DNA of 64,000 nucleotides from Luteimonas sp. FCS-9 (GTDB lineage: Bacteria; Pseudomonadota; Gammaproteobacteria; Xanthomonadales; Xanthomonadaceae): positions 1 through 64,000 of the forward strand of contig NZ_LASZ01000007.1 of NCBI RefSeq assembly GCF_001014645.1, read 5' to 3'. The translations under genes and the position numbers were made by a program. Below, piece by piece: positions 18,336 to 62,498 of the stretch (within the stretch, counting starts at the first letter, position 1; every line of letters begins with the position of its first letter). A model generated the notes under the pieces. It was not told the DNA's origin, ran no database searches, and saw only the letters and a program-made list of their open reading frames with translations.

Positions 18336-19151
18336 ATGCCGGCGGGCGGGGCTGACGCGGTGTTCGACCTGCACTGCCACCTGCTGCCCGGCATCGACGA
18401 TGGCGCCGTCGACCTCGACATGGCGCTGGAGATGGCCCGGATGGCGGTGGCCGACGGCATCGAGGTGACCGCCTGCACCCCGCACATCTATCCCGGCCTG
18501 TACGAGAACACCGGGCCGCAGATCCGCGCCGCGATCGCCGCGCTGCAGGCGCAGCTCGACGCGGCGGGCATCGCGCTGCGGCTGGTCGAGGGCGCGGACG
18601 TGCACCTGACGCCGACGCTGGTCGACGGCATCCGCAGCGGGCGCATCCCGACCCTCGCCGGCTCACGCTACCTGCTGTTCGAACCGCCGCACCACGTCGC
18701 GCCGCCGCGGCTGGAGGAGGTGCTGTTCGAACTGATGACCGCCGGCTACGTGCCGGTCATCACCCACCCCGAGCGGCTGAGCTGGGTGGAGCAGCACTAC
18801 GACCTGTTCGTGCGGGTCGCCGGGCGCGGCCCGCTGATCCAGATCACCGCCGGCGCGTTGACCGGCCGCTACGGCCGCCGGGTCAAGTACTGGGCCGACC
18901 GTTTCGTCGGCGAGGGCCACGCGCACGTCATCGCGACCGACGCGCACCACCCGAGGCGACGCCCGCCGCTGCTGGCCGAGGCCCGCGAGGCCGCGGCCGC
19001 CCTGGTCGGCGCGGTCGAGGCCGATCACCTGGTGCGCACGCGGCCACAGGCGATCGTGCGCGGCGACCCGCCGACCGCCCTGCCACCGCTGCCCGCGCCC
19101 GCGCCGCCCAGGCCCGAGGGCTTCTGGCACCGCCTGCTGCGCTCCGCCTGA
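18336..19151 (+). CDS. CpsB/CapC-type tyrosine phosphatase (PHP domain)
   Basis: Manganese-dependent protein tyrosine phosphatase expected to dephosphorylate the GumC-like kinase two genes downstream. The 271-residue PHP domain starts with FDLHCHLLPGIDDG (metal ligands His13, His15 and Asp), and continues with TPHIYPG, ITHPER and ATDAHHP. The C-terminal 30 residues are a Pro/Arg tail. The ATG at 18336 places the PHP motif at residue 11, as usual for the family. First gene of polysaccharide locus A. A TAGACT hexamer at 18210-18215 could be its -10 box. Confidence 0.9.
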   Translation: MPAGGADAVFDLHCHLLPGIDDGAVDLDMALEMARMAVADGIEVTACTPHIYPGLYENTGPQIRAAIAALQAQLDAAGIALRLVEGADVHLTPTLVDGIRSGRIPTLAGSRYLLFEPPHHVAPPRLEEVLFELMTAGYVPVITHPERLSWVEQHYDLFVRVAGRGPLIQITAGALTGRYGRRVKYWADRFVGEGHAHVIATDAHHPRRRPPLLAEAREAAAALVGAVEADHLVRTRPQAIVRGDPPTALPPLPAPAPPRPEGFWHRLLRSA

Positions 19152-19169: not shown

Positions 19170-19868
19170 ATGACCCAGCCCGTCCGCCTCCTGCTCCTCG
19201 CCCTGCTCGCCTGCCTGCTCGCGGCCTGCGCTTCGGGCGGCAAGCGGGCGCAGCACCTGCCGGCCGACCTGCCGCCGCCCGACACCACGTCGACGTCGGG
19301 CGCCTACGAGGGCGCGTCCGACTACCGGATCGGCGCGCAGGACCTGCTGGAGGTCAGCGTGTTCGGCGTGCAGGAGCTCAACCGCCAGGCGCGGGTCAAC
19401 TCCAACGGCCAGATCACGCTGCCGCTGATCGGCGCGGTGATGGCCGGCGGGCGCACCATTCCGGAGCTGGAGACCGAACTCGCCCAGCGCTATGCCGACG
19501 GCTACCTGCAGAACCCGCAGGTCAGCATCTTCGTCAAGGAATACACCAGCCAGCGCGTCACGCTCGAAGGCGCGGTCAAGAAACCCGGCATCTACCCGCT
19601 GACCGGGCGGACCACGCTGCTGCAGGCGGTCGCGATGGCCGAGGGGCTCGACGAAATGGCCGACCTGCAGGGCGTGGTGCTGTTCCGCCACGTCAACGGC
19701 GAGCGCATGGCCGCCGCGTTCGACATGAGCGCCGTGCGGCGGGGCGAGATGGCCGACCCGCAGATCTACGGCGACGACATCATCGTCGTCGAACGATCGG
19801 GCAGCAAATCGGCGATGCGCGAGTTCCTGCGCACGATCCCGGCCTGGGCGCTGTTCATCGCGCTCTGA
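19170..19868 (+). CDS. outer-membrane polysaccharide export lipoprotein, GumB-like
   Basis: Wza/GumB-family exporter that forms the outer-membrane part of the polysaccharide channel. The 232-residue product has a lipoprotein signal with lipobox LAAC (Cys20), a poly_export domain (YRIGAQDLLEVSVFGV) and one SLBB domain (VTLEGAVKKPGIYPL). It is short like Xanthomonas GumB (about 210-230 residues), lacking the extra C-terminal domains of E. coli Wza. It lies directly between cpsB and the GumC-like gene, the typical exporter/co-polymerase pair. Confidence 0.92.
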   Translation: MTQPVRLLLLALLACLLAACASGGKRAQHLPADLPPPDTTSTSGAYEGASDYRIGAQDLLEVSVFGVQELNRQARVNSNGQITLPLIGAVMAGGRTIPELETELAQRYADGYLQNPQVSIFVKEYTSQRVTLEGAVKKPGIYPLTGRTTLLQAVAMAEGLDEMADLQGVVLFRHVNGERMAAAFDMSAVRRGEMADPQIYGDDIIVVERSGSKSAMREFLRTIPAWALFIAL

Positions 19869-19920: not shown

Positions 19921-22227
19921 ATGCAAGACGATCACCTGCCCGCCGTGACCGGCGACGATGGACACGGCGAGCGCCGACTGCCGGCGCACGGCAGCGGCCA
20001 GCTGACCCCCGCCGGCGCCCGCGGCCTGAGCGTCGAGCTGCTCGAGGGCAAGCGCGGCACCGGCAACGAGATCGACCTGCTCACCTACTGGCGCATCCTC
20101 GTCAAGCGCCGCTGGCTGGTGCTCGGGGTGCTGGGGGCGGTGGTCGCGGTCACGCTGCTGGCCACGCTGCTGATGCCGCCGGTCTACCGGGCCACCGCGA
20201 CGCTGCAGATCGACCGGGAAACCGTGCAGATCATGCAGGTCGAAGGCATGACCAACGCCGAGGGCACGTCCACACCCGACTTCCTGACAACCCAGTACGA
20301 GCTGTTGCGCAGCCGCGCGCTGGCCGAGCGCGTCGCCGACGAACTGCGGATCGACCGTGCGACCGTCGAACGCCTGCGCGCGACGTCGTGGTGGCAGCGC
20401 GCGAGCGCCGCGCTGCGCCCGTCCGCGGGTAACGACGCGACCGACACCGCCGACGAGAACGTGGCCGATGCCGTCGACGAGGCCGCACAGGACGACGGGC
20501 GCGCCGACCTGGCGCAGGGCACGGCGCTGGTCCGCGACGGGCCCACCATCGAGCCGGTGCGCAACTCGCGGCTGGTGCGGGTGCATTTCGACTCGACGCT
20601 GCCGGGGTTCTCCGCACGCGTGGCCAACGCGATCGCCGACGGCTTCATCGAGTCCGGCGTCGAGCGCAGGTTCGGCGCGTCCTCGCACGCAAGCCGCTAT
20701 CTCGAGGCGCAGCTGGCGCTGGCCAAGGGCCGGCTCGAGGAATCGGAACGCGCCCTGGTGGCGTTCGCCACGCGCGAGAACATCGTCGGCAGCGGCGAGG
20801 GCGGGCTCTCGCTGGAAGGCCAGAACCTGAGCACGCTCAACACCGCGCTCGCCGCCGCCCAGGACCAGCGCATCCAGGCGCAGGCGTTGTGGCAGCAGGT
20901 CGGCGGCGGCGGCTCGCTGCCGGCCGCGGCGGTGGGCGCGTCGATCATCAACACGCTGCAGCAGCAGCGCGCGCAGCTCAATGCGCAGTACCAGCAGCAG
21001 TTGCAGACGTTCAAGTCCGACTACCCGGCGATGCGTGCGCTCAAGGAGCAGATCGACGAGGTCGGGCGCCAGTTGCAGGAGGAGCGCGCGTCGGTGCGGG
21101 CCTCGATCAAGGCCGAGTACGACGCCGCCCGCGCGCGCGAGAACATGCTGCTCTCGCAGCTGGCGCAGCTGCGCACGCAGGCGCTGGACGTCGACAACCG
21201 CTCGATCGACTACAACATCCTGCGCCGCGAGGTCGACACCAACCGCCAGCTCTACGACGGCCTGCTGCAGCGCTACAAGCAGATCGGCGTGGCCGGCGGT
21301 GGCGGCGCCAACAATATCTCCATCGTCGATCGCGCGATCGTGCCCGCCAGCCGCTTCAAGCCCAGCCTGCCGCGTAACCTCGCGCTGGGCCTGGCGATCG
21401 GCCTGGTGCTCGGCGCGCTGCTGGCGTTCCTGCTCGAGTTCCTCGACGACACGCTCAAGAGCCCGGACGATGTCGAGCAGGACCTGCGCCTGGCGGTACT
21501 CGGCGTGATCCCGCGCCTGAAGAAGCAGACCGTCGCCAACGCGCAGGCCGACCCGCGCTCGGCGTTCTCCGAGGCCTACCGCTCGGTGCGCACCGCGCTG
21601 CAGTTCTCCACCGACCGCGGCGTCCCGCGCACGCTGCTGATCACCAGCGCCAGCGCCGCCGAAGGCAAGTCGACCACCGCGCTGACGCTGGCACGCAACT
21701 TCGCGCAGCTCGGCAAGCGCGTCTTGCTGATCGACGCGGACCTGCGCAACCCCTCGCTGCACAAGACGCTCGAGGTGCGCTCGGAGACCGGGCTGTCGAG
21801 CCTGCTGGCCGGCGCGGCGGCGATGGGCAAGGCGGTCGTGGACACCGACGACGAGCGACTGAAGGTGATCCTCGCCGGCCCGCTGCCGCCCAACCCCGCC
21901 GAACTGCTGTCGGGCAACCGGCTGCTGTCGCTGCTCACCGTCGCGGCCGAGCACTACGACCAAGTCATCATCGACGGCCCGCCGGTGCTGGGCATCGCCG
22001 ACGCGCCGCTGCTGTCCAACGTCGTGGGCGGCACGCTGCTGGTGGTGCAGGCCGGCAGCACGCGCAGGAAGACCGCGCAGACCGCGCTCAAGCGGCTGCT
22101 GGTCGCGCGTGCGCGGGTCATCGGCGCGCTGCTCACGCACTACGACGCCAAGGTTGCCGGGCAGGACGACGACTACGCGTCCTACTACGCCTACGGGACG
22201 TCGCCCAGGCTGACCGGCAATCCCTAG
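19921..22227 (+). CDS. chain-length determinant / tyrosine autokinase, GumC-Wzc type
   Basis: Inner-membrane polysaccharide co-polymerase fused to a bacterial tyrosine kinase. In the 768 residues there is an N-terminal Wzz helix (about 62-85), a long periplasmic coiled coil (about 240-460), a second helix (LALGLAIGLVLGALLAFLL, about 485-505), and a C-terminal kinase with Walker A AAEGKSTT (Lys583), Walker A' LLIDADLR and Walker B VIIDGPPVL. The tail has a tyrosine cluster, DDDYASYYAYG, the expected autophosphorylation site. Partner of the CpsB phosphatase and GumB-like exporter in the same operon. Confidence 0.94.
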   Translation: MQDDHLPAVTGDDGHGERRLPAHGSGQLTPAGARGLSVELLEGKRGTGNEIDLLTYWRILVKRRWLVLGVLGAVVAVTLLATLLMPPVYRATATLQIDRETVQIMQVEGMTNAEGTSTPDFLTTQYELLRSRALAERVADELRIDRATVERLRATSWWQRASAALRPSAGNDATDTADENVADAVDEAAQDDGRADLAQGTALVRDGPTIEPVRNSRLVRVHFDSTLPGFSARVANAIADGFIESGVERRFGASSHASRYLEAQLALAKGRLEESERALVAFATRENIVGSGEGGLSLEGQNLSTLNTALAAAQDQRIQAQALWQQVGGGGSLPAAAVGASIINTLQQQRAQLNAQYQQQLQTFKSDYPAMRALKEQIDEVGRQLQEERASVRASIKAEYDAARARENMLLSQLAQLRTQALDVDNRSIDYNILRREVDTNRQLYDGLLQRYKQIGVAGGGGANNISIVDRAIVPASRFKPSLPRNLALGLAIGLVLGALLAFLLEFLDDTLKSPDDVEQDLRLAVLGVIPRLKKQTVANAQADPRSAFSEAYRSVRTALQFSTDRGVPRTLLITSASAAEGKSTTALTLARNFAQLGKRVLLIDADLRNPSLHKTLEVRSETGLSSLLAGAAAMGKAVVDTDDERLKVILAGPLPPNPAELLSGNRLLSLLTVAAEHYDQVIIDGPPVLGIADAPLLSNVVGGTLLVVQAGSTRRKTAQTALKRLLVARARVIGALLTHYDAKVAGQDDDYASYYAYGTSPRLTGNP

Positions 22228-22236
22228 GCCGGTGGC

Positions 22237-23586
22237 ATGACCGCCGGAGAGGAAGCCCTCGACATCGCCTTCGGCCTGCTGCGCGTGCCGGCTCGGCGCG
22301 AGGCGCTGCGCACGCGTCCGCTGCCCGACGGCGTCACCGAGGTCATCGAGATCGCATCCGGCGACGACGACGCGCTGCGGGCCGCGGTCGCGCGGACCGG
22401 CCACGCGCCGGCCGAGCTGCTCGAGGCCACGCGCTTCTACGTCCAGCAGGTGCTGCTGGCCGACGGCGCAGACGCCTACCGCGTGCTCGGCGCGCGGCCG
22501 GGCGCCGAGCACGCGCGGCTGCGCCGGCACCATCGCCTGCTGCTGCGCTGGCTGCACCCCGATCGCGGCCAGGACTGGGGCGACGCGTTCGCCTGGCGCA
22601 TCAACGACGCCTGGCGCGCATTGCGCACGCCCGCTGCACGCGCGCGTTACGAGGCGCAGCGCCCCGCTGCCGCGATGGCGCCCCCTGCGGGCGCCCGCCC
22701 GCCCGCAGCGACGGCGGCCGGTCCGGCGCGGCCCCCGCTGCCGGTGCCCGGGCCGGACCGGCGCAGCGTCGCCGCACCGTGGATCGTCGGCCTGCTCGCG
22801 GCGACCTGCCTGCTGCTCGCCTGGCTTGCGATGCGCGCCGACTGGACGCCGCCACACGAGGACGATCCCGTGGTCGCCGTCCGGCCGCCACGTGCCGCGT
22901 CGCCATCGCCATCGCCTGGGTCCTTGCCGAGGCCGACGTCGGCCCCCCCCGTTCCCGCCTCGTCGCGTCGACCCCCTGCCCCCGACAACGCGTCCTCGCC
23001 GGCCCCCGCGGCGGCGATGCCGGCCGACGCCGCCGACGCATCGCTGGTCGAGGATCCTCCGCCTGCCGCCGTGGCCGACGCCGTCGCGCCCCGCGCGACC
23101 CCCGCCGCGCTTTCGGCACCGGAGGCGCCCCCGCGACGCCCGGCGCCCGTCCCCCCGCCGGCCGCGCCGCCCGTGCCACCGTCCGCGTCCGCCGGGCCGA
23201 TGCCTGCCCCTTCGCCCGGCCTCCAGGCGGAGGCGGAGGAGGATCCGTCGCGCCTGATGCGCGAGGCCGAACGCATGGTGGCGGCCCTGGTCGACCAGCT
23301 CACCGCACGGTCGCCGGCCGCGCCGGTGCCCGAGCCCGTCGCGGACGCCCGGGACGCGCTGCACGCGCGCGTGGCGCCGGCGCTGCGCCGGCGCATGACG
23401 TTGCAGGACGCCGAGTGGACCCTCGGCGCGCGGGCCGCCTCGATGCAGGCGCCCTATCGACTGGGTGGATGGCGCGGAACAGGGGAGACCGGATGGCTGC
23501 GCGTGACGCTGGTGCGGGACCAGGCCCGATGGCGGCTGGACACACTGCGGCTGGAACCGGCGGTGCAGGAGGCGGCCACCCGATGA
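22237..23586 (+). CDS. membrane-anchored J-domain protein of the polysaccharide locus
   Basis: The 449-residue product has an uncharacterised N-terminal part (1-80), then a J domain (about 83-140) with the HPD motif in LRWLHPDRGQD (His107-Asp109) and helix III WRINDAWRALRTPAAR. A single membrane helix follows (about 182-201), then a 150-residue Pro/Ala linker and a small C-terminal domain ending near RWRLDTLRLE. The J domain should face the cytoplasm and the tail the periplasm. J domains recruit Hsp70 (DnaK). It starts ten bases after the GumC-like kinase, so it is probably co-expressed and may act on the export machine; that role is inferred. Confidence 0.78.
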   Translation: MTAGEEALDIAFGLLRVPARREALRTRPLPDGVTEVIEIASGDDDALRAAVARTGHAPAELLEATRFYVQQVLLADGADAYRVLGARPGAEHARLRRHHRLLLRWLHPDRGQDWGDAFAWRINDAWRALRTPAARARYEAQRPAAAMAPPAGARPPAATAAGPARPPLPVPGPDRRSVAAPWIVGLLAATCLLLAWLAMRADWTPPHEDDPVVAVRPPRAASPSPSPGSLPRPTSAPPVPASSRRPPAPDNASSPAPAAAMPADAADASLVEDPPPAAVADAVAPRATPAALSAPEAPPRRPAPVPPPAAPPVPPSASAGPMPAPSPGLQAEAEEDPSRLMREAERMVAALVDQLTARSPAAPVPEPVADARDALHARVAPALRRRMTLQDAEWTLGARAASMQAPYRLGGWRGTGETGWLRVTLVRDQARWRLDTLRLEPAVQEAATR

Positions 23587-24761
23587 GCCCCGCGCGCCGC
23601 TTCGTGTTCGCGGGCGTTCTGGCCCTGCTGGCCTGGGCCGGCTGGCAACTCGTCGCCCATCGCCACGCCGAGCGCGACGCCTCGGCCGCGCTCGCCGAGG
23701 CCAACGCCCGCCTGCGGGCCGGCGATGCCGACGGTGCCGCCCGGATCGCGCGCGGGGCCCTGACCCAGGCGCCGGGCCAGGGGCGCGCGTTCGGCATCCT
23801 CGCGCGCGCGCTCGACGACGAAACCGACGACCCGGCCAGCCGCCAGCGCTACGCCATCGCCGCGCGCCGTGCGCCGCGCGATGCCGGTGTGCGCGTCGCC
23901 CTCGCCGCCGACGCCCTCGAAGGCGGCGACCACGCCGCCGCGCTGGTGCAGCTCGATGCACTGCTGACGATCGCGCCGTCGCGCCGGCAGGACCTGTTCG
24001 GCGCGATCGCGCAGTTGTGCGACGACCCCGACTTCGCCGATGCGCTGGCCGCGCATCTCGCCCACCGCCCGCGCTGGCGCGCCGGCGCGTTGCGCGCCAT
24101 CGCCGACACTGCCCGCCCCGAAGCCAAGGACCGCCTGTACGGCGCGCTGCGGGCCGCCGGCGATCTCGGCCCCGACGAGGCGGCCCGCTGGATCGAGGGC
24201 ATGTTGCGCGAGGGCCGCTGGGGCGATGCCTACGCCCGCTGGTTCGCCGGGATCGATCCGGCGCCGTCCCGGCTCCCGGTGCCGTGGAACGGGGACTTCG
24301 CTGCGCCGATCGGCGGCGCCGGCTTCGACTGGCGGCTGCGGCCCACCGCCGGTGTCGCGACGCAGCGGGTCCGCACGTCGTCCGGTCATGCGCTGCGCCT
24401 GCGCTTCATCGGCCGCCCGGTGGCCCGCACCGGCCTCGAGCAACCGCTGCTGCTGGCGCCGGGGCCGCACGTGCTGCACTGGCGGGCCCGTACCGACGAT
24501 CTGCGCAGCGACCAGGGCCTCGCCTGGGAACTGGCCTGCGCCCGCGGACGTGCGATCGCGCGCGGCGCGGCCGTCCGCCAGGCCGAGGCCTGGACCGAAC
24601 GTGCCCTGGCCTTCGAGGTCCCGGAGCGCGACTGCGACGGCCAGTGGCTGCGGCTGGTCAATCCCGCGCCGCGCGGCGTCGCGCAGATCGTGCGCGGCGA
24701 ACTCCTGGTCTCGGACGTGAGAATCTCGGCGGGCGGCGAACAAAATCCCCATTCACCTTGA
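23583..24761 (+). CDS. TPR-like membrane protein with C-terminal beta-sandwich domain
   Basis: Overlaps the J-domain gene by ATGA, so the two are translationally coupled. The 392-residue product has an N-terminal membrane anchor (about 7-25), helical repeats of TPR character (about 35-235, e.g. ANARLRAGDADGAARIARG) and a C-terminal domain (about 245-390) with alternating beta-strand patterns and paired aromatics resembling carbohydrate-binding jelly rolls (HVLHWRARTDDLRSDQGL, ERDCDGQWLRLV). Proteins of this layout occur near O-antigen ligase-type polymerases. A periplasmic scaffold or glycan-binding role is a guess. Confidence 0.65.
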   Translation: MSPARRFVFAGVLALLAWAGWQLVAHRHAERDASAALAEANARLRAGDADGAARIARGALTQAPGQGRAFGILARALDDETDDPASRQRYAIAARRAPRDAGVRVALAADALEGGDHAAALVQLDALLTIAPSRRQDLFGAIAQLCDDPDFADALAAHLAHRPRWRAGALRAIADTARPEAKDRLYGALRAAGDLGPDEAARWIEGMLREGRWGDAYARWFAGIDPAPSRLPVPWNGDFAAPIGGAGFDWRLRPTAGVATQRVRTSSGHALRLRFIGRPVARTGLEQPLLLAPGPHVLHWRARTDDLRSDQGLAWELACARGRAIARGAAVRQAEAWTERALAFEVPERDCDGQWLRLVNPAPRGVAQIVRGELLVSDVRISAGGEQNPHSP

Positions 24762-25052: not shown

Positions 25053-25472
25053 ATGAACATTCGCTTCGCGCTGATCGCGGCCCTGGCCATCACCGCCACG
25101 CCCGCCGCATTCGCACAGGATGGAAGTGCCACGCTGCGCGTCGATCGCGGCAGCGCGATGACCAGCACCGGCGGCGAATTCGCCGCGGCGCCGTCCGGCA
25201 GCCAGGTCGGACCCGGCACGCGCGTGATGCTCGCCGAGAACAGCCGCGCGACGCTGGTCTACCCCGATGGCTGCACCCAGCCGCTGAGTGCGGCCGGCGT
25301 CTACAGCGTGCCGGCGACCTGCGTCGCCGCGGCGGGCACCAGTGGCGCTACCGGCACGATGGCGGGCGGCGAGGCCGCCGCGACCGTCGGCATCGTCGCC
25401 GGCACGATGGCGCTGGTCGGCGTCGGCCTGCACAACATGGATGAGGAACCCGCACCGCCGATCAGCCGCTGA
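25053..25472 (+). CDS. small secreted/membrane protein of locus A
   Basis: The 139-residue product has a clear signal peptide (MNIRFALIAALAITATPAAFAQ), a 75-residue periplasmic domain with FecR-like beta pattern and two cysteines (about 74 and 90) that could pair, and a C-terminal hydrophobic glycine-containing helix ATVGIVAGTMALVGVG followed by an acidic tail. The helix closely resembles that of the YjbE-like protein of locus B (TVGIVAGVVAL). It has its own upstream promoter-like sequence and a perfect terminator after it, so it is probably a separate transcript. Function unknown; an accessory role in exopolysaccharide production is inferred. Confidence 0.72.
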   Translation: MNIRFALIAALAITATPAAFAQDGSATLRVDRGSAMTSTGGEFAAAPSGSQVGPGTRVMLAENSRATLVYPDGCTQPLSAAGVYSVPATCVAAAGTSGATGTMAGGEAAATVGIVAGTMALVGVGLHNMDEEPAPPISR

Positions 25473-25495
25473 GTCCGGCCGCCGGCAGGGGATCG

Positions 25496-25529
25496 AACGG
25501 GACGGGAAGGCATTTCCCGTCCCGTTTTT
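25496..25529 (+). terminator. rho-independent terminator
   Basis: A perfect 13-bp stem AACGGGACGGGAA / TTCCCGTCCCGTT with a five-base loop (GGCAT) is followed by a short T run, 24 bases after the small secreted protein gene and 14 bases before the polymerase start. It should end or strongly reduce transcription into the next gene. Confidence 0.92.
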
Positions 25530-25542
25530 CGTGGCGCGACGA

Positions 25543-26946
25543 ATGGGAGACGGCGTGCGCAGGGCATTGGGGGACAAGAGCGAATCGTGGGCCGTGGCCG
25601 CCGCCTCGGCACTGCTGCTGGCGCTGCTGCTGGTCGGCGGCAGCACCCAGGAGGCCACCGGCACCGGCGACCTCGTCGTCCGCCTGCTGTCGCTCCCGAT
25701 ACTCGCGTGGGGCGCCTACCGCCTGTTGCACGCCCCGCTGGGCACGCTGCGCGCCACGTGGCTCGCGTTCGCAGGCACGCTGCTGCTGATTCCGCTGTTG
25801 CAACTCGCCCCGCTCGCCGGAGGCGGCGAAGGCCGCGCCGCACTCGCCGACGATCTCGCACGGTTCGGATTGCCGCCGCCGCGAACCTGGTCGCTGCTGC
25901 CCTCGGCCACGCGCGATGCCGCGTTCTCGCTGTTGCCGCCGCTGGCGGTCTTCGCGCTGGCCTCGACGCTGTCGCACGCGGGCCTTCGCCGGCTCGCAGC
26001 CGCGATCGTCGCGCTCGCGATGGCCAGCCTGTTGCTGGGCATCGCGCAGCTCGGCGCGCCGCAGGAAAGCTTGCTCAATCCCTATCCGCAATGGCGGCCG
26101 GCGCTGGGGGGATTCTTCGCCAACCCGAACCACCAGGCCGCGCTGCTGGTCGTCGCGGCGACGTTCGCCGGCGCCCACCTGGCGGGCCTGGCCGACGCGG
26201 CCGAGGACCGGGTGCGCCCGCAGCGCATGCTGCGCATCCTGGCGGCGGGCACGGCGCTGGCGCTGGCGCTCGTCGCGCTGCCGCTCACCGGCTCGCGCGC
26301 GGGCGTGGTACTCGCGATCGTGGCGGTCCCCGCGGCGGCCCTCGCCCGAAGACCGTCCGCGACCGGGCGCGGACGTGCGGGCCTGGCCGTCGGCCTGGGC
26401 GCCATGGTCTTCGGCGCGCTCGCCGCGCTGCGCTGGATGCGCACCGATGCGGTGGACGACCTGCGCGGTCCGCTGCGCGCGGCGTCGGAGACGATCGCCG
26501 CGCGCTTCGCGCCCACGGGCAGCGGCATCGGCAGCTACGTGCCGGTGTTCGAGCAAGAGGCGCCGCCGCAACTGCTGATGGGCAGCTACGTCAACCATGC
26601 CCACAACGAGTACCTGCAATGGTGGATGGAAGGCGGCGTGCCGGCGCTGCTCGCGATGGCGCTCGGCGCGGTCGTCCTCGACGCCACGCTCGTGCGGCTG
26701 CTGCGCCTGCCCGGGCGCGATCGCGCGCTGGGCCTCGCGGCCTGGATCGCGCTCGCCGCGATGCTCGCGCATTCGCTCGTCGACTACCCGCTGCGCACCC
26801 CCGCGCTGCTTGCGATCGCCGCGGCGTTGGCCGGCATCGCGTGCGCCGAAGCGACCCGCGCGCGCAAGCCCGCCTCCACGCATGTGCGGCATGGCAGCGG
26901 CCGGGTCCCCGGCCGTCACGATTCGACGGCGGCCCCGTCCCGCTGA
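25543..26946 (+). CDS. O-antigen ligase / polymerase (Wzy_C family)
   Basis: Integral membrane protein of 467 residues with about eleven helices and the large periplasmic loop typical of the O-antigen ligase/polymerase superfamily: GFFANPNHQAALLV, LTGSRAG and NHAHNEYLQWWMEGGVPAL. It is expected either to polymerise repeat units or to ligate glycans. The ATG at 25543 lies just beyond the terminator of the preceding gene, so expression may depend on read-through or on a promoter within the terminator region. The C-terminal 40 residues are polar. The locus has a second polymerase candidate at 37621. Confidence 0.88.
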   Translation: MGDGVRRALGDKSESWAVAAASALLLALLLVGGSTQEATGTGDLVVRLLSLPILAWGAYRLLHAPLGTLRATWLAFAGTLLLIPLLQLAPLAGGGEGRAALADDLARFGLPPPRTWSLLPSATRDAAFSLLPPLAVFALASTLSHAGLRRLAAAIVALAMASLLLGIAQLGAPQESLLNPYPQWRPALGGFFANPNHQAALLVVAATFAGAHLAGLADAAEDRVRPQRMLRILAAGTALALALVALPLTGSRAGVVLAIVAVPAAALARRPSATGRGRAGLAVGLGAMVFGALAALRWMRTDAVDDLRGPLRAASETIAARFAPTGSGIGSYVPVFEQEAPPQLLMGSYVNHAHNEYLQWWMEGGVPALLAMALGAVVLDATLVRLLRLPGRDRALGLAAWIALAAMLAHSLVDYPLRTPALLAIAAALAGIACAEATRARKPASTHVRHGSGRVPGRHDSTAAPSR

Positions 26947-26971
26947 CGGGACCCGACAGGAACGGACACGG

Positions 26972-28255
26972 ATGAGCAATGCGGTACAGACGGACGACGT
27001 ACGCATCGCGGTGGTGGGCCTGGGCTACGTCGGGTTGCCGCTCGCAGTGGAATTCGGCAAGCGGTTCGCGACGATGGGGTTCGACATCGACCCGGCGCGC
27101 ATCGCCGAGCTGCGCGCCAGCCGCGACAGCACCCGCGAGGTCGAGGCCGAGCAGCTGATCGAGGCCGACCGCCTGATCTTCACCAGCGACCTGGAAGACA
27201 TCCGCAGCTGCAACGTCTACATCGTCACCGTGCCCACGCCGATCGACGCGGCCCGGCGCCCCGACCTCTCGCCGCTGGAGGGCGCGAGCGCGGCGCTGGG
27301 TGGGGTGCTCGCGCGCGGGGACACGGTGATCTACGAGAGCACCGTCTACCCGGGCTGCACCGAGGAGGTCTGCGTCCCGATCCTCGAACGCGCCTCGGGG
27401 CTGCGGTTCAACGTCGACTTCGCGGTCGGCTACAGCCCCGAACGCATCAACCCCGGCGACAAGGCGCACCGCCTGACCAGCATCCTGAAGATCACCTCGG
27501 GGTCGACGCCGGCGGCCGCCGCGTTCGTCGACGCGCTCTACCGCAGCATCATCCCGGCCGGCACCCACCGCGCGAGCAGCCTCAAGGTCGCCGAGGCGGC
27601 CAAGGTCATCGAGAACACGCAGCGCGACCTCAACATCGCGCTCGTCAACGACCTGTCCATGCTGTTCAACAAGCTCGGCATCGACACGCTCGAGGTGCTG
27701 GAGGCAGCCGGCACGAAGTGGAACTTCCTGCCGTTCCGTCCCGGCCTCGTCGGCGGCCACTGCATCAGCGTCGATCCCTACTACCTGACCCACAAGGCGC
27801 AGGAGGTGGGCCACCATCCCGACGTCATCCTCGCCGGGCGGCGCACCAACGACGGCATGGGCCCCTACATCGCCGGCGAGGTGATCCGGCTGATGGTCCG
27901 CAAGGGCATCAATCCGGTCGGCGCGTGCGTACTGGTGCTGGGACTGGCCTTCAAGGAGAACTGCCCGGACCTGCGCAACACCCGCGTGATCGACATCGTG
28001 CGCGCACTGCAGGCCTACCACGCGCGGGTCGACGTGGCCGATCCCTGGGTCGACGCCGCCAGGGCGCGCCACGAGTACGGCATCGCCATCGTCTCGCCCG
28101 GCCACGACGCCTACGACGCGGTGATCGTCGCGGTCGGCCACGAGGAATTCCGCGCACTCGGCGCCGATGGCGTGCGCGCCTACGGCAAGCAGGCCGCGGT
28201 GGTCTACGACGTGAAGTCGATCCTGCCGCGTGGCGCGGCCGACGGACGGCTCTAG
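26972..28255 (+). CDS. UDP-N-acetyl-D-hexosamine 6-dehydrogenase (TviB/WbpO type)
   Basis: NAD-dependent oxidation of a UDP-N-acetylhexosamine to its uronic acid. The 427 residues show the Rossmann motif [12 protein letters not shown], the hinge motif and [11 protein letters not shown], catalytic Cys264 in [12 protein letters not shown], and the C-terminal UDP-binding domain. The [16 protein letters not shown] signature fits the TviB/WbpO branch (UDP-GlcNAc or UDP-GalNAc) rather than UDP-glucose dehydrogenase. It is two bases from the TviC-like epimerase gene, reproducing the Vi-antigen pair. Confidence 0.9.
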
Positions 28256-31413: not shown

Positions 31414-32925
31414 ATGTCGGACGCCAGCTCCTATCGCCAGATCCTGCGCTCTTCCTCGGTGATCGGAGGCGCCTCGGTCGTCAATATCGGCATCGGCCTG
31501 CTGCGCATGAAGGCCGTCGCATTGCTCTTGGGACCGAGCGGCGTGGGCCTGATCGGCCTGTTCACCAACCTGGTGGCGCTGGTCTCGACCGTGGCCGGGC
31601 TCGGCATCGGCAATGTCGGCACGCGACAGATCGCGGAAGCTGCGGGACGGAGCGACCCCCAGCGCATCGCCACGGCTCGTCGCGCCCTGTTCTGGGGAAC
31701 GCTGATGTTGGCCGGGGGCGGCGCGCTGGTCATCTGGTCGCTGCGGGGCGTGTTCGCGGCGTACGTGCTGAACGACGCTACGCTCGCGCCGCAGATCGGC
31801 TGGCTGTCGCTGGCGGTCGCGCTCACCGTGGCGGCCGCCTCGCAGAATGCGTTGCTCAATGGACTGCGGCGCATTGGCGACATTGCCCGCGTACAGATCG
31901 CCAGCGCGGTTCTGTCGACCGTCCTCGGCCTGCTCGCCCTCTGGTGTTGGGGCGCGCCCGGCATCGTGGCGTTCGTGGTCGCCGCACCCCTGGCCACGTT
32001 CGTTTTGGGCCACGTGTTCGTCGCTCGACTGCCCAAGGTGCAGGCCCCGGCCAGCGACGTGCGCGAGCTATCGAACCAGTGGCGCGTACTGGTCCGACTG
32101 GGCACGGCTTTCATGGTGGCGGGCCTGGCGGCCGTCGCCGCGCAACTGGTGGTCCGCACTCTCGTCCAGCGCGATCTGGGCGCGGACGCCCTCGGCCATT
32201 TCCAGGCCGCCTGGGCCATCTCGATGACCTACATCGGCTTCGTCTTGCGCGCGATGGGGACGGACTTCTACCCGCGATTGACCGCGATCATTCAGGACCG
32301 CGACGCCGTCAACCGCCTGGTCAACCAGCAGACGGAAGTCGCACTCCTGCTCGCGACACCGGTGCTGCTTGCGATGCTGGCGCTGGCGCCCTGGGTCATC
32401 CGCCTGCTCTACACCGCGGAGTTCGCGGAGGCCGCCCTCGTACTGCGCTGGCAGGTGCTGGGCGACTTCCTCAAGATCGCGAGCTGGCCGCTGGGATTCA
32501 TCCTGCTGGCATCGGGGGCCGGGCGCACCTACATGCTGACCGAATGGACAGCCATGGGCGTATTCGTCCTGCTCACCTGGATCGGGCTGCCCCTGCTCGG
32601 ACTGGCAGCGAGCGGCATGGCCTTCGTTGGCCTGTACGTGGTCTACCTTCCGCTCGTGTACTGGCTGGCGGTGCGGCGGACGGCGTTCACCTATTCCCCG
32701 CGCATCGTCAAAGTCATGATCTCCTGCCTGGCTTGCGCAATCGTGTTAATGACCATCTCGACCCATTCCGAAATAGCCACAAGGGTGATAGGTCTGTGCA
32801 TTGCCTCGATATTTGCGGCATTCAACTTTCGACAACTCCTGGCCGTCGTAAGCAACGGATCAGAAGCCGGAAAGTTACGAATTGCGAGGCGCGCGATGGA
32901 TAGACTGCTGACCCGCAAAGAATGA
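31414..32925 (+). CDS. wzx: O-antigen flippase Wzx (MOP superfamily)
   Basis: Transports undecaprenyl-linked repeat units across the inner membrane. The 503 residues form about twelve to fourteen helices with the N-terminal pattern SSVIGGASVVNIGIGLLRMK and the LGPSGVGLIGLFTNL loop common to WzxE-like translocases. Base composition shifts within the last 200 bases: the codons change from GC-ending to mixed at about 32,720, which marks the left edge of the AT-richer segment that follows. Confidence 0.9.
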   Translation: MSDASSYRQILRSSSVIGGASVVNIGIGLLRMKAVALLLGPSGVGLIGLFTNLVALVSTVAGLGIGNVGTRQIAEAAGRSDPQRIATARRALFWGTLMLAGGGALVIWSLRGVFAAYVLNDATLAPQIGWLSLAVALTVAAASQNALLNGLRRIGDIARVQIASAVLSTVLGLLALWCWGAPGIVAFVVAAPLATFVLGHVFVARLPKVQAPASDVRELSNQWRVLVRLGTAFMVAGLAAVAAQLVVRTLVQRDLGADALGHFQAAWAISMTYIGFVLRAMGTDFYPRLTAIIQDRDAVNRLVNQQTEVALLLATPVLLAMLALAPWVIRLLYTAEFAEAALVLRWQVLGDFLKIASWPLGFILLASGAGRTYMLTEWTAMGVFVLLTWIGLPLLGLAASGMAFVGLYVVYLPLVYWLAVRRTAFTYSPRIVKVMISCLACAIVLMTISTHSEIATRVIGLCIASIFAAFNFRQLLAVVSNGSEAGKLRIARRAMDRLLTRKE

Positions 32926-32953
32926 TCTCACCTCGGAAAAATGGAGCCACGGC

Positions 32954-34000
32954 GTGAAAGTGCTACTCCTCCATGAAATGAGCGGAGTCCACACAGAACT
33001 CAAAAAAGGGCTGCTAGACATAGGAATTGAAGCGCGGATTGCAACGCTCGGTGACGGATCGAAACGTTACGACACCGATATTTTTCTTGGGAATCCCGGC
33101 AACGGCATCCCCGCTGCGCTCAGCAGGATGCTGGCCCAGATCAGTGTCGCGAACAAGCTTCGTTCGTTCGACATCATCCAGACCATATCCCCAAATCCCT
33201 TCTTCAAACCACTCAGCAAAGCGCTTGCGAATCACGTATTCAATGATCCGGAAAAGTGCATCTACGTCGCTGCGGGATCTGACGCAATCTATCGCAAGCA
33301 TGTGCGGACGCTCGCGTACCACCCCCCTCACGACTGGCATGAGGATGACCACAAATATAACGGACTGCGCGACCTGATAAGCGAATTCAAGGAAGTCGTC
33401 CCACTTTGCTGGGAGTACAAATACTCGCTCCAGCAAGCAGGGCTTACGCCACCAGAAGTCGTCCCCTTCCCGATTGAGATATCGAGACATCGCGTCCACC
33501 CCATCAAAAAGCGAGGTCGCCTTAAGATCTTCCACCCCCTGAATAGGATCAATCGCACCAACGACTTCAAGGGGACCAGCCTGATCTTGAAGGCATTCGA
33601 TATCCTCAACACAAAATACGGCCGCTACGCCGAATTCATCACCTCAGGCGGAATGAATCATCGCGATTATGACTCCTTTACTAATGGCATGGACATCATT
33701 GTGGACCAAGCCTACAGCTACAGCTATGGCATGAGCGCCGCCTATGCTCTAGCGAAAGGAAAGATCGTCCTGTCCGGAATGGAAAGCGAGGCCAGAGCGA
33801 ATGGCATCTACTGCGACTGCCCGGTGATCAATATCCGACCAAACGTGCAAGACATCGCGGATAAAATCGCCTCCGTAATAGAGTCTAGATCGAAGCTCGG
33901 CATATTGAGTGACGCATCACGTGATTTTGCAGAGCGCTTTCACGACCACAAGGAAGTGGCGAGACAATACGCCGAAATCTATCACCGCCCCAAGCAGTAA
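32954..34000 (+). CDS. glycosyltransferase, GT-B fold (GT4-like)
   Basis: The 348-residue product begins MKVLLLHEMSGVH, typical of the N-terminal Rossmann domain of GT-B enzymes, and has a C-terminal donor-binding region with MDIIVDQAYSYSYGMSAAY and LAKGKIVLSGMESEA. The canonical GT4 E-x7-E motif is weak. GTG start at 32954, with GGAGCC ten bases upstream. Acceptor and donor cannot be named. Part of the AT-richer block. Confidence 0.75.
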   Translation: MKVLLLHEMSGVHTELKKGLLDIGIEARIATLGDGSKRYDTDIFLGNPGNGIPAALSRMLAQISVANKLRSFDIIQTISPNPFFKPLSKALANHVFNDPEKCIYVAAGSDAIYRKHVRTLAYHPPHDWHEDDHKYNGLRDLISEFKEVVPLCWEYKYSLQQAGLTPPEVVPFPIEISRHRVHPIKKRGRLKIFHPLNRINRTNDFKGTSLILKAFDILNTKYGRYAEFITSGGMNHRDYDSFTNGMDIIVDQAYSYSYGMSAAYALAKGKIVLSGMESEARANGIYCDCPVINIRPNVQDIADKIASVIESRSKLGILSDASRDFAERFHDHKEVARQYAEIYHRPKQ

Positions 34001-34024
34001 CTGCATCCATCCTTAGGTATCGTC

Positions 34025-35152
34025 GTGTCCAGAAATCGCCGAGTAATGCACATAATCAGATCGCTGGACTTTGGCGGAGTCGAGTCCCGCATGATCTTGC
34101 TAGCTCAGCATGCGGAAGAATCTGATTTCGAACACACTTTTTGTGCGATCCATTCCGGCGGCGCAGCGTTCGCGAAAATGAAAAACTCCGGAGCGAACGT
34201 GACGGTACTCGGAGAACCCGCCTCCATACCGTCCATTCGCGCCCTGTCCAGCCTGACCCGCCATATTAGAAAATATTCCCCCGACATTGTGCATACGCAT
34301 GGGGCCGAAGCGAACTTCCACGGACTTATAGCATCGAGGTTCGCGAAAGTACCTGTAACCCTCGGAGAGGAAATCGGCATCCCCCGGCATTCCCCCGCCG
34401 CACGCATAGCTTTCAGGATCGTATACGGGACAGCAGATGGGGTAGTCGCGATATCCAACTCTGTCAAGAACGCGATCGTCACCCTCCAGGAGGCAAACCG
34501 CGAAGATATCCACGTGGTGCTCAATCCAGCAAGAATGCTCGATACGGTTACTCGCCGCTCATCCCTGAAAAATGCCAACCAAAGCTTTCGCCTCGGCTTC
34601 GCGGGCCGGCTGGAAGAGGTCAAGAACGCATCTTCTCTGCTCGACGCAATAGCAATTGTCAGAGACTCCGGGGTGCAAGCCACGCTTGACATCGTCGGAA
34701 ACGGCTCACAACGCGCACTGTTGGAGAAACAGGCCCTCGCACTTGGCCTCTCGAAATCTGTAGCATTCCACGGATTCATGGAGGACCCATTTTCCACCCT
34801 CGGATCATGCGACCTGTACATTCAACCGTCTCTCAGCGAGGGCTTTGGCATTGCGCTCGTAGAAGCGATGTCTGCGGGACTTGCCACACTCGCGACCCCT
34901 GTCGGTGGAGCTACTGAAATAATTGAGCATGGGATTAACGGCTTGCTGCTTGAAGATGTTGACGGACAAAGCATCGCCAATGGGGTGATAGCAGCTGCGG
35001 CTCTAGGCAGAGATGAGCTCGCTCGAATAGGCCAAACCGCACGAGCAAGCGTACTCTCAAGGTTTTCGCCGACCAACTATATTCATTCACTTGACCGATT
35101 GTACGACAGCACTCTCACCGAGAGACGCAATCGGACGGGGACAGCCGCATGA
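34025..35152 (+). CDS. glycosyltransferase family 4
   Basis: GT-B enzyme of 375 residues. N-terminal domain starts VMHIIRSLDFGGVESRMI; the C-terminal domain has FAGRLEEVKN, ADVP-like SCDLYIQPSLSEGFGIALVE with the E-x7-E pattern, and GGATEIIEHGINGLLLE. These are classical GT4 donor-site motifs. GTG start at 34025. It overlaps the next gene by four bases. Specificity unknown; one of the enzymes building the locus A repeat unit. Confidence 0.88.
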   Translation: MSRNRRVMHIIRSLDFGGVESRMILLAQHAEESDFEHTFCAIHSGGAAFAKMKNSGANVTVLGEPASIPSIRALSSLTRHIRKYSPDIVHTHGAEANFHGLIASRFAKVPVTLGEEIGIPRHSPAARIAFRIVYGTADGVVAISNSVKNAIVTLQEANREDIHVVLNPARMLDTVTRRSSLKNANQSFRLGFAGRLEEVKNASSLLDAIAIVRDSGVQATLDIVGNGSQRALLEKQALALGLSKSVAFHGFMEDPFSTLGSCDLYIQPSLSEGFGIALVEAMSAGLATLATPVGGATEIIEHGINGLLLEDVDGQSIANGVIAAAALGRDELARIGQTARASVLSRFSPTNYIHSLDRLYDSTLTERRNRTGTAA

Positions 35153-36342
35153 AAGTACTCTTCATAACGTGGGACGGGCCCCAAGTGAATTACCTGGAAG
35201 GGCTATTCCTCCCCATATTCGATGAGCTGTCAAGACTCGGCTTCGAGTTTCACATTCTGCATTTTACATGGGCCAGTGAAACCCATCTATCCAAAGTAAG
35301 AAGGGCTTGCGAGGAATCCGGCGCGTCTTATCAGTCGATACGGGCCTGGAGAACGTCGGCTATGGGATCTTTTCTATCGCTGGCAATCGGTGCGCTCGCC
35401 ATCCGCCGGATCGTCTCGCGCCGATCGATAGACGTGATCATGCCGCGAAGCATCTTCCCAGCGCTTTCGCTTCTCCTTTCGCGCATGCACAAAAGTCACA
35501 GGATAGTATTCGATGCCGACGGGTTTGCTGCGGACGAAAAGGTCGAGTTCGGAAGAATCCAGAGACTCTCGGCATACTACCGCGTGATGCGATACGTCGA
35601 ATTTCGCGCCATCCAGGTATCCAAAGCGGTTCTAGTTCGAACCGAAAAAGCCGCAAACGTTCTGGACGCACGAGGAGGAGCCGGCATCTCTCGAAGCATG
35701 TTTAATGTAGTCAGCAACGGGCGCGATCCATTATTGTTCAGTCCAATGGACCACGAAGCGCGCATGCATATGCGGCGCCGCCTTGGAGTGGATGCGAACT
35801 GCCCCGTGGTTGCCTACGCAGGATCGATGGGCCCCCAATACCTTCCCGAGCGAATAGCTGGGTTCTTCCGCGAAGTCTTGAAACTGAGGCCTGGCGCCAA
35901 GTTGCTTGTGCTCTCCAGCTCACCTGAGCCCGTCCGCATCCACGCCAAGGCTCTCGGGATAGCCGATACATCAATTATCTACGCTTCGTGCGAGCAAGAT
36001 CTTGTCCCTCACTATCTAGCATGCGCCGACCTAGGCTTGGCTTTCCGCGCGACCAGCTGGTCCACACAAGGCATCTCCCCAATAAAGCTGGGAGAGTATC
36101 TTCTCTGTGGATTGCCGGTAATTGCGACGTCGGGCATCGGACGCACAGAAGTGATCGATCGGGACACGGGCCTTCTGGTTGAGGGCGAGATTCCATCCTT
36201 GCAGGAGGCCGCCCAATGGTTTCTCGACGAGGTTCTTCTGGATCGGGATGGATATAGAGCTCGCTGTCGCTCGCTAGGCGTGACGTACTTTTCCATCCGA
36301 TCCTCGGTCAGATCTTATCTGCAGGCGCTGAGAAGCCTATGA
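35149..36342 (+). CDS. glycosyltransferase family 4
   Basis: The 397-residue product starts MKVLFITWDGPQVNYLEGLF, shows GT-B architecture and the donor region VVAYAGSMGPQYLPERIAGF, ending with SPIKLGEYLLCGLPVIATSG and GRTEVIDRDTGLLVE. ATGA overlap with the upstream glycosyltransferase couples their translation. Last gene of the AT-richer block; followed by 110 noncoding bases. Confidence 0.87.
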   Translation: MKVLFITWDGPQVNYLEGLFLPIFDELSRLGFEFHILHFTWASETHLSKVRRACEESGASYQSIRAWRTSAMGSFLSLAIGALAIRRIVSRRSIDVIMPRSIFPALSLLLSRMHKSHRIVFDADGFAADEKVEFGRIQRLSAYYRVMRYVEFRAIQVSKAVLVRTEKAANVLDARGGAGISRSMFNVVSNGRDPLLFSPMDHEARMHMRRRLGVDANCPVVAYAGSMGPQYLPERIAGFFREVLKLRPGAKLLVLSSSPEPVRIHAKALGIADTSIIYASCEQDLVPHYLACADLGLAFRATSWSTQGISPIKLGEYLLCGLPVIATSGIGRTEVIDRDTGLLVEGEIPSLQEAAQWFLDEVLLDRDGYRARCRSLGVTYFSIRSSVRSYLQALRSL

Positions 36343-51977: not shown

Positions 51978-52049
51978 CCTTTTGCTGTTCGCTTCCTTAG
52001 CTCTCCGCTCCACCCTTCCAACCCACATCCCACAACCAGCCCACCGCCC

Positions 52050-53216
52050 ATGAAAATCGCCATCGCCGGCACCGGCTACGTCGGTCTGTCCAACGCCCTC
52101 CTCCTCGCCCAGCACCACACCGTGGTCGCCCTGGACATCGACGCTGCCAAGATCGAGATGCTCAACCGCCGCGAATCGCCGCTGGACGATGCCGAGATCC
52201 GCGAGTACCTCGCCAAGCCGGAGCTGGATTTCACCGCGACGACCGATCCCCTGCAGGCCTACGCGGGTGCAGACTACGTCGTCATCGCGACCCCGACTGA
52301 CTACGACACGACGTCGAACTACTTCAACACCCGTTCGGTCGAAAGCGTCATCGCGCAGGTGCGGGAGATCAACCCCGACGCGGTGATGGTGGTCAAATCC
52401 ACCGTGCCGGTGGGCTTCACCGCCAAGGTCCGAGCACAGTTCGGCACCGACAATGTGCTGTTCTCGCCGGAGTTCCTGCGCGAAGGCCGGGCGCTGTACG
52501 ACAACCTGCATCCCAGCCGGATCATCGTCGGCGAGCGCTCCGAACGCGCCGCCGTCTTCGCGGGCCTGTTGCAGGAAGGTGCGATCAAGCAGGACGTCCC
52601 GGTGCTGTTCACCGATGCGACCGAGGCCGAGGCGATCAAGCTGTTCGCCAACACCTACCTCGCGATGCGGGTGGCGTACTTCAACGAGCTGGACACCTAC
52701 GCCTGCACCCATGGCCTGGATACCCGGCAGATCATCGAAGGCGTGAGCCTCGATCCGCGCATCGGCAGCCACTACAACAATCCTTCGTTCGGCTACGGCG
52801 GCTATTGCCTGCCCAAGGATACCAAGCAGTTGCTCGCCAACTACCGCGATGTCCCGCAGAACATGATCCACGCCATCGTGGAAGCGAATCGGACCCGGAA
52901 GGATTTCATTGCCGAGGACATCCTTCGCCGGAATCCGCGCGTTGTAGGCATGTTCCGACTCGTCATGAAGGCGGGGTCGGATAATTTCCGGGCTTCCGCA
53001 ATACAGGGAGTCATGAAGCGAATCAAGGCCAAGGGTGTCGAGGTGATCGTGTATGAGCCGGCGCTTCAGCAGGATGATTTCTTCGGATCCAGGGTCGTCC
53101 GTGATATCGCCAAGTTCAAGGAGGCGGCAGATCTCATCGTGGCCAATCGGCTGACGGAGCAGTTACGTGACGTCGAAGCCAAGGTTTATAGCCGGGATCT
53201 GTTCGCGGCCGATTGA
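52050..53216 (+). CDS. ugd: UDP-glucose 6-dehydrogenase
   Basis: Makes UDP-glucuronate for an acidic polysaccharide. The 388 residues show [19 protein letters not shown] (NAD site), [20 protein letters not shown], catalytic Cys253 in [15 protein letters not shown], and the C-terminal UDP domain. The short form with LPKDT is of the enterobacterial Ugd/KfiD type. Codon use changes within the gene: the first 830 bases are strongly GC-biased, while from about 52,880 A/T-ending codons become frequent, which suggests a recombination join. Confidence 0.94.
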
Positions 53217-53296
53217 CGCAGTGGAAATGCGAGCCAGTGTTGCCGCCCACCCATTAAGACTCAAAATATCGCGATCGATGTCGTATTCGGTGCTCC

Positions 53297-54754: not shown

Positions 54755-54772
54755 AGAGAATGGAAAATTAAG

Positions 54773-56967: not shown

Positions 56968-57017
56968 GCGGTGTTGGCTTTTGATGGTCCAATAAGGGGG
57001 CGAGCGGGGTTATCACC

Positions 57018-57926: not shown

Positions 57927-57936
57927 CGAGCACCAG

Positions 57937-61315: not shown

Positions 61316-61324
61316 CTGCTCGCT

Positions 61325-62179: not shown

Positions 62180-62498
62180 CTGCCTCCCCGGGTGGGGCCA
62201 CATCAGGTGCCGTGCATGAAGACTCCCGCCGAGGCATACGCTTTAGCCACCTGAATTGTTCAGGAAGTGCTGGGTCGTCACCGCCATTTCAGTCGAGGTT
62301 GCGCCTCGCAGGGCCGGTGATCCGGCGATACTGGTCGGGGCCAGCTATCAGGCACGCACGCAGTTGGGCGGCAGACTTGGTGGGCTGACATGTAGCAGAT
62401 CATCGAGAGCGCCTGCCGCTGGCATCGCAGCCCGGCGTTTTGAGCGGCGGGCCGCCCCCAGCGCTTCAATAGCTCAAACCGCCGACTCAGGCTGGCCG
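62180..62498. other. gene-free boundary of locus B
   Basis: A 319-base stretch with only short broken open frames. Composition is mixed and it has no clear hairpin terminator. It may be a decayed remnant of a mobile gene at the cassette edge, but I cannot assign it to a known family. Confidence 0.4.

Follow-up and report, generated by a model that had tools for sequence, protein, structure and literature searches.

A coupled gene pair behind a GumC-like kinase

The 64,000-nucleotide stretch of Luteimonas sp. FCS-9 analysed here (positions 1 to 64,000 of contig NZ_LASZ01000007.1, hereafter the window) holds a polysaccharide locus in which the gene for a GumC-like bacterial tyrosine kinase (BY-kinase) is followed directly by two further genes. 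One encodes a J-domain membrane protein and the other a membrane-anchored protein that joins a tetratricopeptide repeat (TPR)-like solenoid to a domain resembling a carbohydrate-binding module (CBM). The J gene starts 9 bp past the GumC stop codon, and the J and TPR genes overlap by ATGA; both open reading frames lie where an original prediction, made from the DNA letters, had placed them as a coupled pair right behind the kinase. Chance reading frames or a degenerate J domain are ruled out by the PF00226 match, the conservation found in a genome scan and the structural model. The features of the pair, all on the forward strand, are as follows (TM, transmembrane; pLDDT, the AlphaFold2 per-residue confidence; aa, amino acids).

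22237..23586 (+): J-domain membrane protein, 449 aa (open reading frame, PF00226, AlphaFold2 model)
22255..22455 (+): N-terminal helical domain, aa 7-73, the mark of the family (model and profile search)
22471..22659 (+): J domain, aa 79-141 (PF00226 and fold)
22555..22563 (+): HPD motif, H107 P108 D109 (sequence)
22777..22839 (+): single TM helix, aa 181-201 (model)
22849..23241 (+): Pro/Ala-rich disordered linker (pLDDT mostly 44-62)
23245..23559 (+): presumed periplasmic NTF2-like domain, aa 337-441 (model and fold comparison)
23583..24761 (+): TPR and CBM-like membrane-anchored protein, 392 aa (open reading frame, model, fold matches)
23727..24248 (+): TPR-like helical solenoid, aa 49-222 (model, profile against PDB TPR proteins)
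24270..24746 (+): CBM4-like beta sandwich, aa 230-388, with C319 and C351 (model, Foldseek, VIA)

Architecture of the J protein

The AlphaFold2 model of the J protein (mean pLDDT 75.7) starts with an N-terminal domain and the J fold; behind them come the TM helix, then a disordered linker and finally an alpha/beta domain at the C-terminus. Confidence is mostly between 80 and 98 in the domains and mostly below 62 in the linker. PF00226 matches residues 79-139 at 28.0 bits, against a cut-off of 27.8 (32.5 bits in the genome search), and 66 residues of the modelled J fold superpose on the J domain 2och with a root-mean-square deviation (rmsd) of 1.4 and a Z score of 8.1. With PF00226 above its cut-off and the HPD tripeptide inside the J fold, this is a class C J-domain protein. 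The single pass through the membrane (helix 181-201), the intact H107-P108-D109 and the long Pro/Ala linker that had been predicted are all present. A single TM helix is likewise found in most of the long gammaproteobacterial relatives.

The earlier account overlooked the C-terminal domain (residues ~337-441), which the model and fold search identify as NTF2-like. Comparison by VIA gives Z scores of 8.0-9.5 to many NTF2-like folds; among them are the periplasmic domains of TraM (Z 9.5) and DotI (8.0) from type IV secretion, which are tied with other NTF2-like folds. The best Foldseek hit has an E value of 4e-3, with none below 1e-3. Pfam returned no match to this region of the window protein; relatives match SnoaL_2 there, one of them (L186; L and G numbers are our handles for loci and genomes) above the curated cut-off (28.2 against 27 bits).

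What marks the family is the helical N-terminal domain of about 70 residues. In a phylum-wide sample, a profile of the first 160 alignment columns separated the family from ordinary J domains: full-length family matches scored at least 157 bits and occurred in 4 of 398 genomes, and the other matches listed reached at most 51 bits and began at position 47 or later, mostly near 75. In the class, a separate profile (A2) detected the family in 15 of 369 genomes at an E value of 1e-15; in one alphaproteobacterial order 24 of 297 genomes had it at 1e-17. A search of the N-terminal domain against PDB sequences gave no match before about residue 70 except to one TPR/J protein; the fold comparison returned no row for this domain alone, which is not evidence of a new fold. 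Membership in the DjlA family was rejected, PRK09430 scoring 11.9 against 162 bits and the J domain here lying N-terminal of the TM helix.

The TPR/CBM partner and a small secreted-looking protein

The partner protein has one N-terminal TM helix and is modelled with a pLDDT of 94. Its C-terminal 160 residues form a CBM4-like sandwich (Foldseek E 2.8e-7) that superposes on the CBM4 domain 1gui over 137 residues with an rmsd of 2.0 and a VIA Z score of 16.0, placing it among the CBM4/16/22 beta sandwiches and giving substance to what had been described as a carbohydrate-binding-like domain. Cysteines C319 and C351 are conserved in every one of the 40 aligned relatives and would fit a periplasmic disulphide. 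The description of a single-pass TPR protein held for the membrane helix and, in the model, for the solenoid; no Pfam TPR model reaches its cut-off against the window protein (TPR_21, 13.2 against 25.5 bits), and the TPR label therefore comes from the modelled fold together with profile hits on TPR proteins in the PDB. The best NCBIfam match is PrsT (TIGR02917), the TPR protein of the XrtA set, at 21.3 bits; membership was rejected against the curated cut-off of 312.2.

A small secreted-looking protein with a conserved cysteine pair is encoded shortly behind the TPR gene. Searches of Pfam and NCBIfam gave no match for the window protein (25054-25472). A profile built from its relatives (for example L065:10857-11297) matches in 53 of the 79 loci of the scan described below, and in 38 of the 41 that span at least 18 kb; this profile was trained on the loci in which it was counted and was run without a shuffled control. 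It may possibly be a third partner of the J-TPR loci.

Linkage to one clade of GumC

In the window the gene order is operon-like: CpsB/CapC phosphatase, GumB-like, GumC-like, J, TPR, small secreted-looking protein, Wzy_C and TviB-like dehydrogenase. The upstream kinase is assigned by TIGR01007 (175 bits, cut-off 108.05), with Wzz, GNVR and kinase domains above their cut-offs, and carries five tyrosines within its final 45 residues. The other genes of the row and the flippase beyond it are:

18336..19151 (+): CpsB/CapC-type PHP tyrosine phosphatase (PF19567, 164 bits; start codon not settled)
19170..19868 (+): GumB-like outer-membrane polysaccharide export protein (PF02563, 84.5 bits; SLBB)
19921..22227 (+): GumC-like Wzz and BY-kinase with Tyr-rich tail (PF02706, 46.3 bits; PF13807, 49.2 bits)
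25054..25472 (+): small secreted-looking Cys-pair protein, possible third partner (recurs in scan loci)
25486..26946 (+): Wzy_C-type polymerase/ligase (PF04932, 48.6 bits; start not settled)
26969..28255 (+): TviB-like UDP-GlcNAc C6 dehydrogenase (NF011729, 605.9 bits, cut-off 592)
31414..32925 (+): Wzx-type flippase (PF01943, 65.7 bits)

A two-pattern scan of species genomes yielded 79 loci from gamma- and alphaproteobacteria, Lysobacterales and Hyphomicrobiales among others. Profiles trained on these same 79 loci found GumC in 74, GumB in 71, TPR in 68, CpsB in 59 and Wzy in 50; single queries taken from the window gave 74, 71, 64, 58 and 50, respectively. In all 74 loci with GumC the J start lies between -47 and +157 bp from the GumC stop (median 3), and in 66 of 68 the TPR gene starts within 150 bp of J, overlapping it in 35 of 68 and by exactly 4 bp in 18; J and TPR starts were chosen by rule, which affects these gap values. 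The module is thus conserved over two proteobacterial classes beyond what chance would give, and the tightest tie of the J gene is to the kinase GumC itself. The co-occurrence with GumB and GumC that the original prediction had proposed to look for is therefore present, and the notion that the pair occurs mostly without polysaccharide genes fails because J and TPR genes co-occur so widely with these two.

Five scan loci lack GumC. Two of them (L096 and L136) begin at a contig end, and L079, L097 and L132 are truly without it: L132 has a TviB-like gene nearby, L097 a Wzy gene and L079 only the TPR gene. At L097:1-1720 a J-TPR-Wzy row has, in place of GumC in front, a long frame on the opposite strand upstream.

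Within Luteimonas and its order, 11 of 61 genomes hold J-family genes (7 of 37 in the genus, 4 of 24 outside it) and these same 11 hold the TPR gene; J stands behind GumC in the 10 other J-bearing loci fetched from these relatives. The 61 genomes hold 35 GumC-like matches at an E value of 1e-30 or better, of which 11 are J-linked (at least 52% identity) and 24 are not (27-47%). The neighbourhoods of 20 of these 24 were scanned and gave no match to the J or TPR profile; the remaining 4 were judged by the genome-wide J search only. A quick GumC tree of 71 rows, comprising 52 chosen J loci and 19 non-J rows drawn only from the Luteimonas and order search (L265 was dropped as short), gathers the 52 J-locus rows into one supported group (SH-aLRT 99) with a single non-J row, L250. 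Across Luteimonas and the order, J accompanies a single kind of GumC. L250 (genome G006) has a J-clade GumC and no family J gene in 14 kb of a fragmented genome, possibly a loss.

Retention of HPD and the pseudo-J relatives

All 79 scan loci have HPD, a count biased by the presence of HPD in one of the two scan patterns; the same bias towards HPD applies to the 30 aligned GumC-linked rows in which H, P and D are invariant. A fairer count comes from 72 loci collected by protein or profile search, overlapping in part with the two-pattern scan (L198 may be the same locus as L084) so that the counts are not additive: 46 have HPD and GumC, 3 HPD without GumC, 5 GumC without HPD and 18 neither. HPD is kept, in other words, in 46 of 51 GumC-linked loci. 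Among the three with HPD and without GumC, L211 and L244 lie at contig ends and L218 adjoins CpsB; one of the 18, L232, begins inside the gene itself, so that GumC cannot be judged there.

In 14 of the 23 HPD-less loci Q replaces H. Each of the five that are linked to GumC has an additional module on the cytoplasmic side: L187 and L191 carry a receiver domain, and L226, L227 and L230 a TIGR03015 ATPase. All five keep the TPR/CBM gene and the small secreted protein. In L187 and L191, both of them beside GumC, the response-regulator receiver domain follows the pseudo-J domain and precedes the TM helix. Fusion of HPD-less relatives to the XrtA/PEP-CTERM-associated ATPase TIGR03015 was seen in L189, L194, L195, L224-L230 and L233, above the curated cut-off, and weakly, below it, in L231. 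Because HPD is kept in 46 of 51 loci and the pseudo-J relatives often bear an ATPase or a receiver, recruitment of DnaK looks important but replaceable.

On the tree the 23 HPD-less rows fall into one group of 25 (support 93/79) that includes two HPD rows. Since HPD thus changes only about twice and the sign test is empty, the 72-locus table was not used as a statistic, and the loss of HPD was rejected as evidence that HPD depends on adjacency to GumC. Three HPD-less loci without GumC (L188, L190, L195) have a GumB-profile match 6-7 kb away. L188 shows the same J family with another exporter type: behind its pseudo-J gene come a small secreted-looking protein, YjbH, a multi-SLBB exporter and a Wzz gene that has no kinase match. 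A link of the whole module to exosortases was rejected: PF09721 is present in 15 of 33 chosen genomes, gave no match in the window's genome or in any of the seven alphaproteobacterial ones, and in G361, where it shares a contig with the module, lies about 60 kb from it.

The candidate Hsp70 partner

One Hsp70 of DnaK size (874 bits) was found in the genome; two further PF00012 matches score 49 and 40 bits. DnaJ contacts DnaK through the positively charged residues R22, K26, R27, K48 and K51 (PMC8215388; here and below, papers are cited from excerpts of their text), of which the R22, K26 and R27 sites were compared. The R22 site is basic in 22 of 23 gammaproteobacterial HPD rows and is R in 21 of 26 alphaproteobacterial ones; the other two sites are taken up below.

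Comparison with known systems

No account of such a module came up in the literature searched. The search, mostly judged without full texts, found no published J protein encoded beside a BY-kinase, and to that extent the earlier statement that no such system had been described stands; its wider form must yield to precedents for Hsp70 action on envelope and polysaccharide systems, among them DjlA (PMC11709261) and Nostoc DnaK1/DnaJ3 (PMC9239167). One of the papers judged without its full text, PMC10434189, contains each of the two annotation phrases once. Escherichia coli DjlA is likewise a membrane-anchored class C J protein with a J- and DnaK-dependent action on a capsule-linked membrane complex: its induction of Rcs depends on the J domain, on DnaK and on localisation to the membrane, and it loosens the IgaA-RcsD contact, which the H233Q variant does not (PMC11709261). 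In DjlA a TM helix comes first, a TerB-like domain follows and the J domain stands at the C-terminus, whereas here the J domain precedes the TM helix, the long gammaproteobacterial proteins end in an NTF2-like domain and the gene is coupled to that of an exporter kinase. Caulobacter crescentus DjlA is a J co-chaperone that is co-induced with, and through its HPD aids, a trans-envelope machine, the pump AcrAB-NodT; it differs in having no TM anchor, in being coupled via TipR at a distant promoter and in serving an efflux pump (PMC10754441).

In Nostoc punctiforme the Hsp70 system DnaK1/DnaJ3 is needed for normal secreted hormogonium polysaccharide, but it is tied to type IV pilus motors, and GumC, Wzc and tyrosine are absent from the main text of that report (PMC9239167). 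StkA of Myxococcus xanthus also controls exopolysaccharide; it is an Hsp70 homologue rather than a J protein and is placed between type IV pili and the Dif pathway (PMC4319316). E. coli DjlB and DjlC share the order seen here, being tail-anchored with J first and the TM helix behind, but they are assigned to the Hsp70 HscC, against the one DnaK-size Hsp70 of the Luteimonas genome, and the excerpts on them mention no periplasmic domain (PMC8215388). The XrtA/PEP-CTERM set touches the module at two points, the TIGR03015 ATPase fused to the HPD-less relatives and PrsT as best match of the TPR protein; the PrsT score lies far below its cut-off, and the window's genome lacks an exosortase match. 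A xanthan-type gum operon is not claimed, the locus holding TviB, Wzy_C and Wzx genes.

A proposed role and its alternatives

The conserved gene set suggests that a chaperone helps run the exporter. The J protein, whose gene is coupled to GumC, which retains HPD and which in the window and most long gammaproteobacterial relatives has a predicted TM helix and a C-terminal NTF2-like domain, may be a dedicated membrane-anchored class C J co-chaperone of one clade of GumB/GumC (Wza/Wzc-type) exporters, a proposal to which we give just short of an even chance. In this scheme the J and N-terminal domains would be cytoplasmic, and the NTF2-like and CBM parts periplasmic. The helical N-terminal domain would bind the cytoplasmic face of the kinase/co-polymerase ring, and the J domain would fire DnaK, the one Hsp70 of that size found in the genome, on GumC. 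The flexible Tyr-rich tail of GumC is the probable target, and the action would let subunits be loosened, reset or put together during the ring's cycle. In the periplasm, the TPR/CBM partner could make up, with the NTF2-like domain, a polymer-facing scaffold or checkpoint. The XrtA-type ATPase or receiver that many pseudo-J relatives carry could provide energy or act as a switch in place of this step. We favour GumC as client, since no other neighbour is as constant and the J start is coupled to the GumC stop. The module itself is real and conserved, and the mechanism of the original prediction is plausible; the J protein would be a membrane co-chaperone devoted to a BY-kinase exporter.

How the Wzc/GumC ring is disassembled and rebuilt in each polymerisation round is still debated. 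If a chaperone cycles the ring in this clade, the step becomes testable by one point mutation (H107Q), and the HPD and non-HPD versions of one architecture beside the same kinase clade offer a natural experiment. The loci also provide partners and a likely role for genes annotated 'DnaJ domain-containing protein' and 'hypothetical protein', wording taken from the one record inspected.

Several observations weigh against the co-chaperone proposal. The alphaproteobacterial J proteins are mostly ~180-275 residues long with basic tails, many lack the C-terminal domain, and a crude hydropathy rule finds a clear TM helix in only some of them. J-TPR pairs occur without GumC in L079 and L132 (about 10 kb of upstream sequence) and in L097 (1.7 kb). 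HPD is missing in 5 of 51 GumC-linked loci, so DnaK is not indispensable everywhere, and since pseudo-J proteins exist a J/DnaK mechanism cannot be universal; with about two changes of HPD state on the tree, the association of HPD with GumC has no independent replication (sign test p 1). Among the DnaK contacts, the R27 site lacks R or K in 49 HPD rows (H in 2), and at the K26 site only 8 of 26 alphaproteobacterial rows have R or K. The client could also be another product of the locus.

In the original prediction, DnaK could be brought to the kinase ring to control its assembly cycle, with the partner sensing polymer. The J/TPR co-occurrence and the single DnaK-size Hsp70 agree with it in part; the HPD-less GumC neighbours, the pairs without GumC and the short alphaproteobacterial J proteins do not. 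On the boldest reading an Hsp70 step would be built into this Wzc/GumC clade, J firing DnaK to drive a cycle of ring assembly and disassembly, the NTF2-like and TPR/CBM parts reporting polymer state across the membrane, and the J slot being modular (in related lineages a natural pseudo-J protein, commonly with Q for H and with an XrtA-type ATPase or a receiver attached); we regard this as doubtful. Equally doubtful to us is a structural and regulatory scaffold in which DnaK is secondary, the N-terminal domain, TM helix and NTF2-like domain tying GumC to the TPR/CBM protein and J being exchangeable with a receiver or XrtA ATPase. VirB8-type proteins in type IV secretion are a precedent for such a scaffold. 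The resemblance to TraM and DotI, tied as it is with other NTF2-like folds, points the same way, as do the receiver- or ATPase-bearing HPD-less members beside GumC and the persistence of the TPR/CBM and small secreted proteins in all five of those loci. It sits poorly with the retention of HPD in 46 of 51 loci and its invariance in the HPD-biased alignment, and many alphaproteobacterial members have HPD and no C-terminal domain, where a pure scaffold would lead one to expect the reverse.

Local quality control, in which J would bring DnaK to new aggregation-prone GumC, to GumB before secretion, and to Wzy and Wzx for folding, insertion or secretion, with no part in the working cycle, would account for the close coupling to GumC and has a parallel in C. 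crescentus DjlA, which interacts with AcrA and augments pump function (PMC10754441). It leaves the NTF2-like domain, the CBM partner and, in the genomes tested, the restriction to one GumC clade unexplained, and seems unlikely. The direction might also be reversed, with J keeping DnaK close to the BY-kinase, either for DnaK to be phosphorylated or for its availability under stress to gate the kinase. Bacillus subtilis PtkA phosphorylates DnaK at Y601, and Y601F DnaK binds DnaJ and GrpE less (PMC4835898); a CpsB-type phosphatase gene stands in the operon here. A dedicated J protein does not figure in the excerpts of the B. subtilis account (PMC4835898), and this direction is quite improbable. 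That J is a passenger without a role in export is hardly credible given the order, coupling and HPD conserved over two classes, even though the module has no more than accessory status in the genus, with 7 of 37 Luteimonas-group genomes holding it.

Other features of the locus

Further sugar genes and the Wzx flippase lie 3' of the TviB-like gene. A scan for promoters and terminators returned none of either and is uninformative at this G+C content. From about 0.70, G+C drops to 0.55-0.61 at 32001-36000 and 52001-64000 of the window, which may fit acquired genes. The same J locus is present in G034, of the same genus. Four Bradyrhizobium records carry the module on plasmids typed as conjugative, for example L153 (Bradyrhizobium sp. 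ISRA443 plasmid); on one Bradyrhizobium conjugative plasmid the order is export, autokinase, 'DnaJ domain-containing protein' and hypothetical protein, with an O-antigen ligase next on the other strand.

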